From Candidatus Accumulibacter meliphilus (GTDB lineage Bacteria; Pseudomonadota; Gammaproteobacteria; Burkholderiales; Rhodocyclaceae), in assembly GCA_003332265.1 (NCBI GenBank), contig QPGA01000004.1:85614-140991 (forward strand): DNA of 55,378 nt. Direction: 5' to 3'. A program made the position numbers and the translations under genes. Numbering within the stretch: the stretch's first letter is position 1; every line of letters starts with the position of its first letter. The notes beneath the pieces were generated by a model, which did no database searches, had not been told where the DNA came from, and was given only the letters and a program-made list of their open reading frames with translations. Shown here one piece after another: positions 20,840 to 24,991 of this stretch.

Positions 20840-21592
20840 ATGAAAAACCAACTGGATCGACCGGCGGCAACCTGCGTGGCCGTCAAGGAAAGCCTCCCTG
20901 ACATACCTCACTATCTGCAAGCCCATTACTGGTGGGCCTATGTCCATCCGCGGGCAGTGCATGTCTTCGAGCGGCAGTGGCTGGTAAATCTGATTCTCTG
21001 GGGCAATTACAAGCGCTTGTGCAATGCTGTGCTGCATGACTACGGCCACGATTTGTGCGGCCGTACGCTGCAGATTGCCTGTGCCTATGGTGACCTGACG
21101 CCGCGACTGGTGGACTGCGTGGCGCCGGGTGGTTCGCTCGAGATCGTCGATATTCTGCCGATCCAGCTCGAGAATCTGGCCAAGAAATTGCCGAAGGATG
21201 CGCCCGTCCAGCTGCATTGCATGGATTCGGCGGCGCTTGGCTATGCCGATGCGACTTTCGATCGCGCCTTACTGTTCTTCCTGCTGCACGAGCAGCCGCA
21301 GGCGGTGCGCGAAAAAACCCTCGCCGAGGCGCTGCGAGTGGTGCGTCCGGGCGGCACGCTGACCATCGTCGACTACGCGCCGCTCAGTAAAGTCAATCCC
21401 TTGCGCTACCTCTGGAAGCCGGTCCTCGACCGGCTCGAGCCTTTTGCGCACGACCTGTTCAGTGAAGAAGTCGCTGCCTGGTTGCCGAAAGACGGTTCAT
21501 TCGTCAGCGTCGGCGATCAGCGTTTCTTCGGTGGTATGTATCAAATGTTGACGCTCAAGATTGCCGGCCCGCAAGCAGGTTCGGCAAGCTGA
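20840..21592 (+). CDS. rquA: Rhodoquinone biosynthesis protein RquA (quinone aminotransferase of the methyltransferase fold)
   Basis: This 250-residue class I methyltransferase-fold protein matches RquA, which converts ubiquinone to rhodoquinone by replacing a methoxy group with an amino group taken from SAM. Diagnostic segments outside the SAM fold are HYWWAYVHPRAV (residues 29-40), FERQWLV (43-49) and LILWGNY (51-57). Inside it, the usual glycine-rich motif I is replaced by IACAYGDLT (79-87), as I remember for RquA and unlike UbiE. LFFLLHEQP and RVVRPGGTLTIVDYAPL complete the fold. The neighbour 103 bases downstream is frdA, start of a fumarate reductase operon, exactly the enzyme that would use rhodoquinol. 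Assignment is by motif memory and context; a UbiE/COQ5-type methyltransferase is the main alternative. Confidence 0.85.
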   Translation: MKNQLDRPAATCVAVKESLPDIPHYLQAHYWWAYVHPRAVHVFERQWLVNLILWGNYKRLCNAVLHDYGHDLCGRTLQIACAYGDLTPRLVDCVAPGGSLEIVDILPIQLENLAKKLPKDAPVQLHCMDSAALGYADATFDRALLFFLLHEQPQAVREKTLAEALRVVRPGGTLTIVDYAPLSKVNPLRYLWKPVLDRLEPFAHDLFSEEVAAWLPKDGSFVSVGDQRFFGGMYQMLTLKIAGPQAGSAS

Positions 21593-21695
21593 CGCGTAGA
21601 TAATCAGCCGGTCCCGCGCCAGTAGTCTTGCTCCTGCGGGGCTTCTCGGATTGTTGGTTGCGCCTGGCAATGGCCGGCGTGAGAAAGGATCAAGC

Positions 21696-23483
21696 ATGGA
21701 GAGTTACAAGGCAGATGTAGTGATTGTGGGCGGCGGCGGGGCAGGCCTGCGGGCCGCGATCGCCGTGGCGGAGGCTGATCCCGCCCTCAGGATCGCGCTG
21801 ATCTCGAAAGTCTATCCGATGCGTAGCCATACCGTGGCCGCCGAAGGCGGCTCGGCAGGTGTGAAACTGCCCACCGATAGCCTCGAGTACCATTTCAACG
21901 ATACCGTCGGTGGTGGCGACTGGTTGTGCGAGCAGGATGTGGTCGAATACTTCGTTGCCCACTGCAACGAAGAGTTGACCCAGCTCGAGCACTGGGGTTG
22001 CCCCTGGAGTCGCACCCCGGACGGGCACGTCAATGTGCGCGCCTTCGGCGGCATGAAGATCGAGCGCACCTGGTTCGCCGCCGACAAGACCGGTTTCCAC
22101 ATGCTGCACACGCTCTTTCAGACGTCGATCAAGTATCCGTCGATCAAACGTTTCGACGAGCACTTCTGCGTTGATCTGGTGGTCGAGGGCGGTCGTGTTC
22201 AGGGCGTCGTCACCATCGAGATCGGCTCCGGTGAGATGGCCCTGGTCGAAGGAAAGTCGGTGGTCATCGCCACCGGCGGCGCCGGTCGCGTCTTCCGCGA
22301 GAACACCAATGGCGGCATCGTGACCGGTGACGGCATGGCTCTGGCCTACCGCCACGGCGTGCCGTTGCGGGACATGGAGTTCGTCCAGTACCACCCGACC
22401 TGCATGCCCGGCACCGGGCTGCTCTTCACCGAAGCCTGCCGCGGCGAAGGCGGTTTCCTGGTGAACAAGGACGGCTATCGCTACCTGCAGGATTATGGTC
22501 TCGGCCCGGCCGAGCCGTCACCGCGCAACAAGGCCATGGAACTCGGCCCGCGCGATCGCCTCAGCCAGGCATTCTGGTACGAGCAGCAAAAGGGGCGCAC
22601 CATCGAAGGCCAGCACGGCTCGGTCGTCCATCTCGATCTGCGCCACCTCGGCGAGGCCAAGCTGCGCGAGCGCCTGCCGCAGATTTACGAGCTCGCCGAG
22701 CGCTTTCTCGGCGTCGATCCGGCGCGCGCGCCGATCCCGGTGCGACCGGCGGTGCACTACACCATGGGCGGCATCATGGTCGACGGGCTCTGTGCCTCGC
22801 CGCTGCCGGGCCTCTATGCGGCCGGTGAATGCTCCAGCGTCGGCATCCACGGTGCCAACCGGCTGGGCTCAAATTCGTTGTCCGAGCTCTGCGTTTTCGG
22901 CAAGGTCGCCGGCGAGGAAGCTGCGCGTTTCGCCAAAGCGGCGGCGCCGGGCAATTCGGCCAGTCTGCTCAAGCAGGCGCAGGCGGTCGAACAGCGACTC
23001 GTCGGGCTGAAGACGAAAACCGGCGGCAGCGAGCGCATCGCCACCCTGCGCAAGGAAATGGCGCAGACCATGGAGGACGGCTGCGGCATCTATCGCCTGG
23101 CCGAGACCATGCAGCAGACCTGCAACAAGCTCGACGAGCTCAAGGAGCGTTTCAAGGACGTCAATGTCGAGGACAAGGCGAGCGTCTGGAACACCGAATG
23201 GCTACTGGCCATCGAGCTCGAGTACCAGCTAGACGTAGCGCAGACGATGGCCTATTCGGCCCTCAATCGGCGCGAGTCGCGCGGTGCGCATCAGCGTCTC
23301 GACGGTTTCGAGAAGCGCGACGACGAAAACTTCCTGAAGCACTCGCAGGCGCATTATGTCGCCGGTAGCGCGCCGCGCATCGACTATGGCGCGGTCAAGA
23401 TCACCAAGTCGCAGCCGGGCACGCGCGCCTACGGTGCTGCAGGCGAAAAGGCAGAGCAGGAAAGGAAGGCATCCAATGTCTGA
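21696..23483 (+). CDS. frdA: Fumarate reductase flavoprotein subunit
   Basis: This is the 595-residue catalytic subunit of quinol:fumarate reductase, at the cytoplasmic face of the inner membrane. The FAD fold [14 protein letters not shown] starts at residue 8. Covalent FAD attachment is at His45 in [14 protein letters not shown]. The active-site segments are [32 protein letters not shown] and [20 protein letters not shown] 21696 follows GAAAGGAT. Length and the accompanying frdC and frdD genes indicate FrdA rather than SdhA. The end overlaps frdB by eight bases. First gene of frdABCD, and most likely coexpressed with rquA. Confidence 0.94.
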
Positions 23484-24231
23484 AAATCAGAGAATCATCG
23501 AAATCGAGGTGCTGCGCTACAACCCGGAGACCGACAAGGAGCCGTCCAGGCAGGTCTTCGAGGTACCTTTTACGGACGACATGTCGGTCTTGCAGGGCGT
23601 GCAGTACATCAAGGACTATCTCGACGGCTCGCTGAGCTTTCGCTGGTCGTGCCGGATGGCGATTTGCGGCAGCTGCGGGATGATGATCAACGGCGAACCC
23701 AGCCTCTCCTGCGAGACTTTCCTGCGCGACTACTACCCGGCGCGGGTGCGTGTCGAGGCGCTGGCGCATTTCCCGATCGAGAAAGATCTGGTCATCAACA
23801 TGGAGGGCTTCATCGAGAAACTCGAAAGCATCCAGCCGTACATCATCCCCAAGGAAGAGCGCACGCTGGCGCAAGGCGAGTATCTGCAGACGCCTGCGCA
23901 ACTGGCGAGCTACGAGCAGTTCAGCTCGTGCATCAACTGCATGCTGTGCTACGCCGCCTGCCCGCAGTTCGGACTCAATGCAGAGTTCATCGGACCGGCC
24001 GCGATGGCCCTGCTGCACCGCTACAACATCGATTCGCGCGATGCTGGCAAGGCCGAGCGAATGGAGTTGGTCAATTCCGAAGAGGGGGTGTTCAACTGCA
24101 CTGCGGTCGGCTACTGCTCCGAGGTCTGCCCGAAGCACGTCGACCCGGCCAACGCCGTCAACCAGAACAAGACCAATAGCGCGGCCGATTATTTCCTGCG
24201 TTTCCTTACTCCGAAGGGGGGTGCCAAGTGA
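23476..24231 (+). CDS. frdB: Fumarate reductase iron-sulfur subunit
   Basis: This 251-residue electron-transfer subunit links the quinol site with FrdA. It carries three clusters: a [2Fe-2S] site in [25 protein letters not shown] spacing (Cys near residues 58-78), a [4Fe-4S] site in [12 protein letters not shown], and a [3Fe-4S] site using the cysteines of [19 protein letters not shown]. The ATG at 23476 overlaps the end of frdA, and the stop overlaps the frdC start, so the operon is translationally coupled throughout. Confidence 0.94.
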
Positions 24232-24626
24232 ACAAGCGTCGTCCCTATGTTCGTCCGATGGCCGGATGGTGGCGGAAAAACCCATTCTTCGTCGAGTACA
24301 TGATCCACGAGGGAACCGCCCTCTTCGTCGCCGCCTATGCGCTGATCCTGCTCACCGGGCTGGTTTATCTTTCGCGCGGCGAAGCGGCCTGGAACGTCTG
24401 GCTCGAAGGTCTGAAAAATCCCTGGTACATCGCTTTTCACTGGCTGACGCTGGCGGCGATGTGCTACCACACCTACACCTGGTTCAAGATCATGCCGCGG
24501 ACCATGCCGCCGGTCATCGTCGGCGGAAAACGACTGCCGGATTTTGCAATTACCGGTAGCGGGCTAGCCGTCGCCGCGACCGCCAGCCTTGCCATGCTGG
24601 GCCTGGTATGGGGGATGGCACGATGA
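24228..24626 (+). CDS. frdC: Fumarate reductase membrane anchor subunit C
   Basis: This 132-residue integral membrane anchor has three hydrophobic segments. The N-terminal [18 protein letters not shown] is a close match to the start of E. coli FrdC, and [23 protein letters not shown] matches its second helix. I do not see the pair of haem-ligand histidines used by cytochrome b-type anchors in the right contexts, so this is the haem-less type D quinol:fumarate reductase. It overlaps frdB by four bases and frdD by four bases. Confidence 0.92.
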
Positions 24627-24991
24627 AAAAGACACTGAAACGTTCCAACGCTCCCATCTTCTGGGCGCTGTTCGGCGCTGGCGGCATGCTGTCGGCGCTG
24701 CTTGGCCCGATCCTGGTGTTTATCACCGGCCTGGCCGTTCCGCTCGGCATGCTACTGCCGGCCGACACCATGAGCTACGCGAACATGCTCACTTTTGCCC
24801 AGAACATCATCGGCAAGGGCTTCATCTTCGCAATCATTTCGCTCTTTCTCTGGCACGCGGCACATCGCATCTTTCACAGCCTGCACGACGTCGGTATTCA
24901 CGCCGGTATTGTTGCCAAGCTGATTTTCTACGGTGGGGCCATGGTCGGGACGCTGATCACCGCCTATACCTTGCTGGCCATCGGTTTCTAG
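24623..24991 (+). CDS. frdD: Fumarate reductase membrane anchor subunit D
   Basis: This is the second 122-residue anchor. The segments RSNAPIFWALFGAGGMLSA, LAVPLGMLLPADTMSYANML, FAQNIIGKGFIFAIISLFLW and HRIFHSLHDVGIHAG follow E. coli FrdD throughout. FrdC and FrdD together form the quinol-oxidising site. In E. coli that site uses menaquinol; here the upstream rquA suggests rhodoquinol. ATG 24623 overlaps the frdC stop as ATGA. The operon ends at a 37-base hairpin 23 bases downstream. Confidence 0.93.
   Translation: MKKTLKRSNAPIFWALFGAGGMLSALLGPILVFITGLAVPLGMLLPADTMSYANMLTFAQNIIGKGFIFAIISLFLWHAAHRIFHSLHDVGIHAGIVAKLIFYGGAMVGTLITAYTLLAIGF

Follow-up and report, generated by a model that had tools for sequence, protein, structure and literature searches.

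A gene for a protein of the RquA type stands directly before a fumarate reductase operon, frdABCD, in a 55,378-nt stretch of the genome of Candidatus Accumulibacter meliphilus (genome G000; contig G000:C44, positions 85614-140991), hereafter the window. The locus is likely to be a unit of rhodoquinone-linked fumarate respiration, in which RquA would supply rhodoquinone to fumarate reductase (FRD) as an anaerobic electron sink. It comprises, in window coordinates:

20840-21592, + strand: rquA, 250 amino acids, ATG start; a relative of S-adenosylmethionine (SAM) methyltransferases, putative rhodoquinone biosynthesis protein (ubiquinone to rhodoquinone), assigned by open reading frame (ORF), profile and tree
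21593-21695, + strand: gap between rquA and frdA, 103 bases, in which a consensus-only scan of the + strand showed nothing resembling a terminator
21696-23483, + strand: frdA, fumarate reductase flavoprotein, assigned by profile and by alignment to Escherichia coli FrdA
23476-24231, + strand: frdB, iron-sulfur subunit (NF009051, 427.4 bits against a cut-off of 333; alignment to E. coli FrdB)
24228-24626, + strand: frdC, GTG start, membrane anchor (PF02300, 147.4 against 24.2)
24608-24991, + strand: frdD, membrane anchor (NF003977, 148.1 against 60)

The ORFs confirm the 103-base spacing given in the original prediction, which was made from the sequence of the window, and the frd genes overlap one another by 8 (frdA/frdB), 4 (frdB/frdC) and 19 bases (frdC/frdD).

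The proposed mechanism builds on the exchange of a methoxy for an amino group that is known from the RquA of Rhodospirillum rubrum. RquA would replace a methoxy group of ubiquinone with an amino group from SAM in a reaction that also takes Mn2+, the respiratory chain would reduce the resulting rhodoquinone pool to rhodoquinol, and FrdABCD would re-oxidise rhodoquinol by reducing fumarate to succinate, providing an anaerobic electron outlet alongside a separate succinate dehydrogenase (SDH). The ubiquinone substrate could be provided without oxygen by UbiU, UbiV and UbiT: this oxygen-independent ubiquinone set is present above cut-offs in G000, and ubiquinone can therefore probably be made without oxygen. 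We infer the activity of RquA, the use of rhodoquinol over menaquinol in the G000 species, and an anaerobic flux to succinate and propionyl-CoA.

Identity of RquA and of the fumarate reductase

The translated gene contains the motifs HYWWAYVHPRAV, FERQWLV, LILWGNY and IACAYGDLT, and reaches 277.9 bits in a profile search with NF038261, the NCBI RquA model (cut-off 175). UbiE models score at best 32.2 bits against a cut-off of 158.35. In a tree of 17 proteins, the window RquA and 13 other RquA rows, which are homologues by profile or tblastn and none of tested activity, lie on one side of a branch with support 96/93, separated from the UbiE of G000 itself (G000:C114) and from E. coli UbiE. The original prediction had called the gene RquA-type from its motifs and proposed a comparison with UbiE/COQ5 profiles and a tree; profiles and tree both place it with RquA, and together with the separate UbiE in the genome they rule out a mis-called UbiE. 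A search of solved structures returned 12 matches to RquA, every one a general methyltransferase.

Residues 80-85 of RquA, ACAYGD, occupy the position of AGGTGD in UbiE and form an atypical SAM motif I. Seven residues (Y30, W32, Y34, R45, D104, H150 and E151) are invariant in all 81 aligned RquA rows, and the position of D129 holds Asp in 74 of the 81 and Asn in seven. D104 and D129 lie 25 residues apart, as do D118 and D143 of R. rubrum, and the two pairs are equated by this spacing. The R. rubrum protein is described in the excerpted text of PMC9814641 as having an atypical SAM motif and the Asp pair D118 and D143, and the Accumulibacter protein resembles it in family, SAM motif and Asp spacing; it differs from the R. 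rubrum enzyme in that its activity is predicted from sequence.

The product of frdABCD is, by sequence, an E. coli-type four-subunit quinol:fumarate reductase, as originally predicted, with FrdA, FrdB and FrdD above their cut-offs. FrdA exceeds both fumarate-reductase equivalog cut-offs (NF006686, 1046.7/854; TIGR01176, 951.1/932.7) and stays below that of sdhA_forward (561.4/727.35). A separate SdhCDAB set is encoded in G000, and its SdhA passes the sdhA_forward cut-off (930.4/727.35). In alignment, FrdA carries the SHTVAAEGG of E. coli FrdA, with Glu, where the separate SdhA has SHTVAAQGG. FrdC lies below the NCBIfam equivalog cut-off (100.5/143) and well above that of PF02300. Among solved structures, FrdC matches 1kf6_C (E 7.6e-22) and FrdD matches 1kf6_D (E 1.8e-29), and at E 0.01 the two anchors have no matches other than subunits C and D of fumarate reductase (1kf6, 4kx6); they appear similar to anchors of the haem-less E. 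coli type. The likeness to E. coli FrdABCD thus extends to the four subunits, their identical order, the anchor families (Fumarate_red_C and Fumarate_red_D), the FrdA Glu motif and Glu-29 of FrdC, whereas Arg-28 of E. coli FrdC is replaced by His in Accumulibacter. Both of these FrdC residues, given in E. coli numbering, have a role in the quinol site. The E. coli control genome, unlike Accumulibacter, has no RquA above cut-off.

Conservation and linkage of rquA and frd

RquA is above cut-off in 26 of 28 Accumulibacter genomes, G000 included, and in all 26 frdA follows on the same strand. The two misses are G003, which is 72% complete and yields no FrdD either, and G009, in which frdA is cut by the end of the contig. 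FrdD is likewise found in 26 of the 28, being missed in G003 and in G027, where the contig ends inside frdA. Purifying selection acts on rquA: three comparisons put its dN/dS at about 0.07-0.12, with dS close to saturation in two of them. Because the order holds in 26 of 26 genomes and rquA has a low dN/dS, the adjacency of rquA and frdA is more than chance. Two candidate cases of rquA loss were set aside. A natural quinone swap in G009 was rejected, since its contig stops within frdA, leaving amino acids 503-595. In the assembly of Candidatus Accumulibacter phosphatis SBR_S (G015; locus L062, contig G015:C26) frame breaks split both rquA and frdA; these look like sequencing indels, and we do not believe in a decay of rquA there.

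Among nine other genomes of the family RquA is above cut-off in two (G034 and G036), where it is 32-35% identical to the window RquA and frdABCD is present elsewhere in the genome. These distant proteins read FFLLHEVP where the window RquA reads FFLLHEQP. Another family member, G147, sampled in the order draw described below, has RquA without FrdD.

A scan of named species kept the best 80 of at least 536 relatives and is tilted to near relatives; 21 of these loci were counted as Accumulibacter (identity of at least 78%) and 59 as lying outside the genus. Among these best 80, rquA precedes frdA in all 21 Accumulibacter loci, and 18 of the 59 others have an frd gene inside 1.5 kb in three arrangements: rquA before frd on the same strand in nine, convergent genes in six, and frd before rquA in three. 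One of the last three (L111) shows a flavoprotein match only, at 50% identity, with no frdC or frdD. A further locus has frd 3.2 kb off, and the flank was too short to judge in 11 of the 59. On a quick tree of 68 rows, with the genus thinned to 6 and 14 rows uncounted, the four states of arrangement require 11 changes, where 3 would be the fewest possible. Well-supported branches alone force three changes for rquA before frd, three for the convergent order and one for frd before rquA.

Co-occurrence was followed in an even sample of 240 genomes of the order, with RquA counted at E of at most 1e-40; the RquA and FrdD draws had the same settings and were taken as identical, though the genome list of each is incomplete. 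RquA was found in 24 genomes (22 above cut-off) and FrdD in six, each of a different family. RquA is present in five of the six genomes with FrdD and in 19 of the 234 without it; when G000 is excluded, the counts are four of five and 19 of 234 (one-sided Fisher p 3e-4). In 33 relatives outside the genus, RquA is above cut-off in two of four FrdD genomes and in one of 29 others (p 0.03). The association in the order draw is mainly one-way, from FrdD to RquA and not the reverse. In the five genomes that hold both, one of which is that of the window, rquA and frdD are adjacent in G066 and G239 and far apart or on different contigs in G139 and G100. The functional pairing of rquA and frd suggested by the original prediction is thus supported by conservation in the genus, repeated linkage and co-occurrence in the order sample. 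Distances of RquA and FrdA correlate over 17 loci (Mantel r 0.51), and co-inheritance was not concluded from this, as shared species history could account for the correlation. The excerpt of PMC11707229 flags as worth study the gain of a low-potential quinone along with that of fumarate reductase, a question of joint gain to which the order-wide association speaks.

Menaquinone genes and the donor of fumarate reductase

The original prediction argued that betaproteobacteria usually make only ubiquinone, with a potential too high to reduce fumarate. This premise fails in G000, which is not a ubiquinone-only genome: MenD (435 bits), MenB (395.6), MenA (170.6) and a menF-type isochorismate synthase (275.2) are above cut-off, and a MenE-like ligase at 264.8 bits, under the cut-off of 330.15, is a probable menE. 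The menB gene meets Ns at its 3' end. A search of 61 genomes for MqnA/MqnD-type proteins (PF02621) at E 1e-15 returned no match. The search for men and mqn genes that the original prediction proposed thus covered five Men proteins, which point to a possibly complete menaquinone pathway, and the Mqn type, which is unmatched. A classical menaquinone pathway is already listed for Accumulibacter phosphatis in the excerpted survey PMC3914697, which covers Accumulibacter and mentions rhodoquinone for purple bacteria. Rhodoquinone is probably not the sole low-potential quinone of the G000 species, where menaquinol may share the work.

Across the genus we counted a genome as men-positive when MenA and MenB were above cut-off and MenD was above cut-off or cut by a contig end (G001, G023), and as men-negative when MenD and MenB were both below. 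The 28 genomes divide into 13 positive, 13 negative (three of which retain MenA) and two unclear ones, G003 with menB only and G012 with menD only. RquA is present in all 13 men-negative genomes and in 12 of the 13 men-positive ones, the exception being G009. Mapped on a tree of five proteins, the men state requires at least 5 changes, three of them forced by well-supported branches. In the men-negative genomes rhodoquinone may be the sole low-potential quinone, being the only one that the searches revealed. The overlap of RquA with men genes in the other genomes is notable because the excerpted survey PMC11707229 finds rhodoquinone and menaquinone genes seldom together (5 cases; 84 RquA genomes).

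The turnover of men genes can be followed at one site. In G000, G009 and G016, menE, menF and menD lie together next to an HDOD-GGDEF gene, and the cassettes of G000 and G016 are bordered on their other side by an acetyl-CoA-synthetase-type gene. Of six men-negative genomes examined, G010, G018 and G022 have the same flanks joined, with no men genes between. In G011 a 4.3 kb stretch without any men match separates the flanks; this genome keeps menA, its menB is broken and its MenD is below cut-off. G004 and G007 show only the synthetase-side flank in the stretch examined, and no men match. The cassette of G000 lies at L053:9417-14195 (G000:C35), with comparison sites in L201, L203, L204 and L205, and the menE, menF and menD of G000 and G016 at this site share just 57-66% identity. 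Within the genus, men genes vary in presence while rquA-frd persists.

This pattern bears on the nearest alternative, that menaquinol is the physiological donor of FRD in the G000 species, as in E. coli, with rhodoquinone serving some other partner or persisting as a relic. The donor of the E. coli enzyme is menaquinol, the FrdC and FrdD of the window match E. coli-type PDB chains, and the Men proteins above cut-off in G000, together with the MenE-like ligase, agree with such a donor. We nevertheless consider it unlikely, since 13 of the 28 genomes have neither MenD nor MenB above cut-off and keep the same rquA-frd operon, menEFD is missing between kept flanks in three of them, menB is broken in G011, and purifying selection is retained on rquA. 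A second alternative, that FRD acts chiefly in the succinate dehydrogenase direction, or bidirectionally, on a mixed quinone pool whose potential rquA would tune instead of serving fumarate respiration alone, appears more improbable still. In its favour, SDH and FRD of E. coli can replace each other, and a paper in the reference list of PMC6529003 has a title to this effect. The symbiont Ca. Accumulibacter symbioticus is also reported, in the excerpted text of PMC13310139, to have lost SDH and to depend on FRD alone. Against it, G000 keeps its own SdhCDAB, and the sdhA_forward cut-off that SdhA passes is the one that FrdA misses. It is scarcely credible that the protein is an RquA-like one with another role, such as a UbiE-like methyltransferase, in an incidental neighbourhood: UbiE and general methyltransferase models do match it weakly, but the RquA model is far exceeded, UbiE scores lie far below cut-off, a separate UbiE exists, the tree splits the two, and linkage to frd recurs.

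Several observations weigh against rhodoquinone-linked fumarate respiration at the locus. The men genes of G000 itself allow menaquinol as FRD donor. An rquA from Desulfobacterota yielded no rhodoquinone when expressed in E. coli, according to the excerpt of PMC13386864, and a sequence call alone is therefore no proof of activity. Two family genomes, G028 (L064) and G033 (L063), carry frdABCD without RquA, MenD, MenB or MenA above cut-off and without an Mqn match, and G178 of the order has FrdD without RquA; either FRD in these three draws on ubiquinol or a different carrier, or the searches overlooked genes. RquA, in turn, occurs without FrdD in 19 of the 24 RquA genomes of the order draw, and at 29 of the 59 loci outside the genus, among the best 80 of at least 536, the flanks show no match to an frd or sdh flavoprotein even though each exceeds 1.5 kb. 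No FNR-like box with up to two mismatches was found in the 260 bases 5' of rquA in 26 genus sequences, G000 included. In the excerpted text of PMC12604563, frdAB transcription was up under low phosphate in one experiment, and frd was not differential in a second.

Rhodoquinone-linked fumarate respiration admits a wider proposal. It is quite possible, if somewhat doubtful, that rhodoquinone is the constant low-potential quinone of the genus, that rquA-frdABCD is fixed while men genes are lost or swapped, and that oxidation of rhodoquinol by FRD balances anaerobic redox in phosphorus removal. Some 12-13 of the 28 genomes would then hold three quinones, ubiquinone, rhodoquinone and menaquinone, the last two being the low-potential pair whose meeting is called rare in the published survey.

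Relation to known systems and the surrounding sequence

Linkage of rquA to complex II has been known since 2018, and the Accumulibacter case adds a member without a claim to priority. Stairs et al. 2018 found that in many bacteria rquA lies no more than 15 genes away from those for complex II, proposed a common operon, and reported 12 bacteria whose rquA-linked complex II is accompanied by a second frd or sdh operon elsewhere (PMC5953543). The present locus shares with these systems the proximity of rquA to complex II and the second sdh elsewhere (PMC5953543). Their main text, with which the locus was compared, names Rhodocyclales and does not mention Accumulibacter together with rhodoquinone (PMC5953543); the link in Accumulibacter differs in being genus-wide, with or without men genes.

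The frdABCD genes have been discussed as a component of anaerobic redox and proton motive force in Accumulibacter and Propionivibrio, in the excerpts of PMC12604563 and PMC4930944. The enzyme there is the same by name, and neither excerpt names the donor quinone of FRD; the word quinone does not occur in PMC12604563. In PMC13310139, rhodoquinone and rquA appear in reference titles only, and the text treats rhodoquinol in ciliates. The searched literature, with most subscription papers, preprints and supplements outside the search, held no account of rquA-frd in Accumulibacter, and gave nothing usable as proof of rhodoquinone production in relatives such as Rhodoplanes. Anaerobic electron disposal by Accumulibacter bears on phosphorus removal from wastewater, and the conserved rquA-frd operon names a candidate donor carrier for FRD and a testable anaerobic outlet.

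The locus is bordered by two further genes:

19849-20697: tatD-type gene, upstream of rquA
25120-25923, opposite strand: PilZ/YcgR-type gene, downstream of frdD (Pfam PilZN; NCBIfam YcgR model below cut-off)

The conserved block in an upstream alignment of 26 sequences, read by eye, corresponds to the tail of tatD, and scans for promoters and terminators at the locus gave counts inside the spread of shuffled sequences. Elsewhere in the window, positions 46596-47717 encode a 373-amino-acid ORF that matched no Pfam family at E 1e-6. Two flanking regions of the window share five short similar stretches of 50-87 bases, four of them inverted. The Rfam group II intron families RF00029 and RF02003 are above gathering score at 81-229 and 55191-55309, near the window ends.

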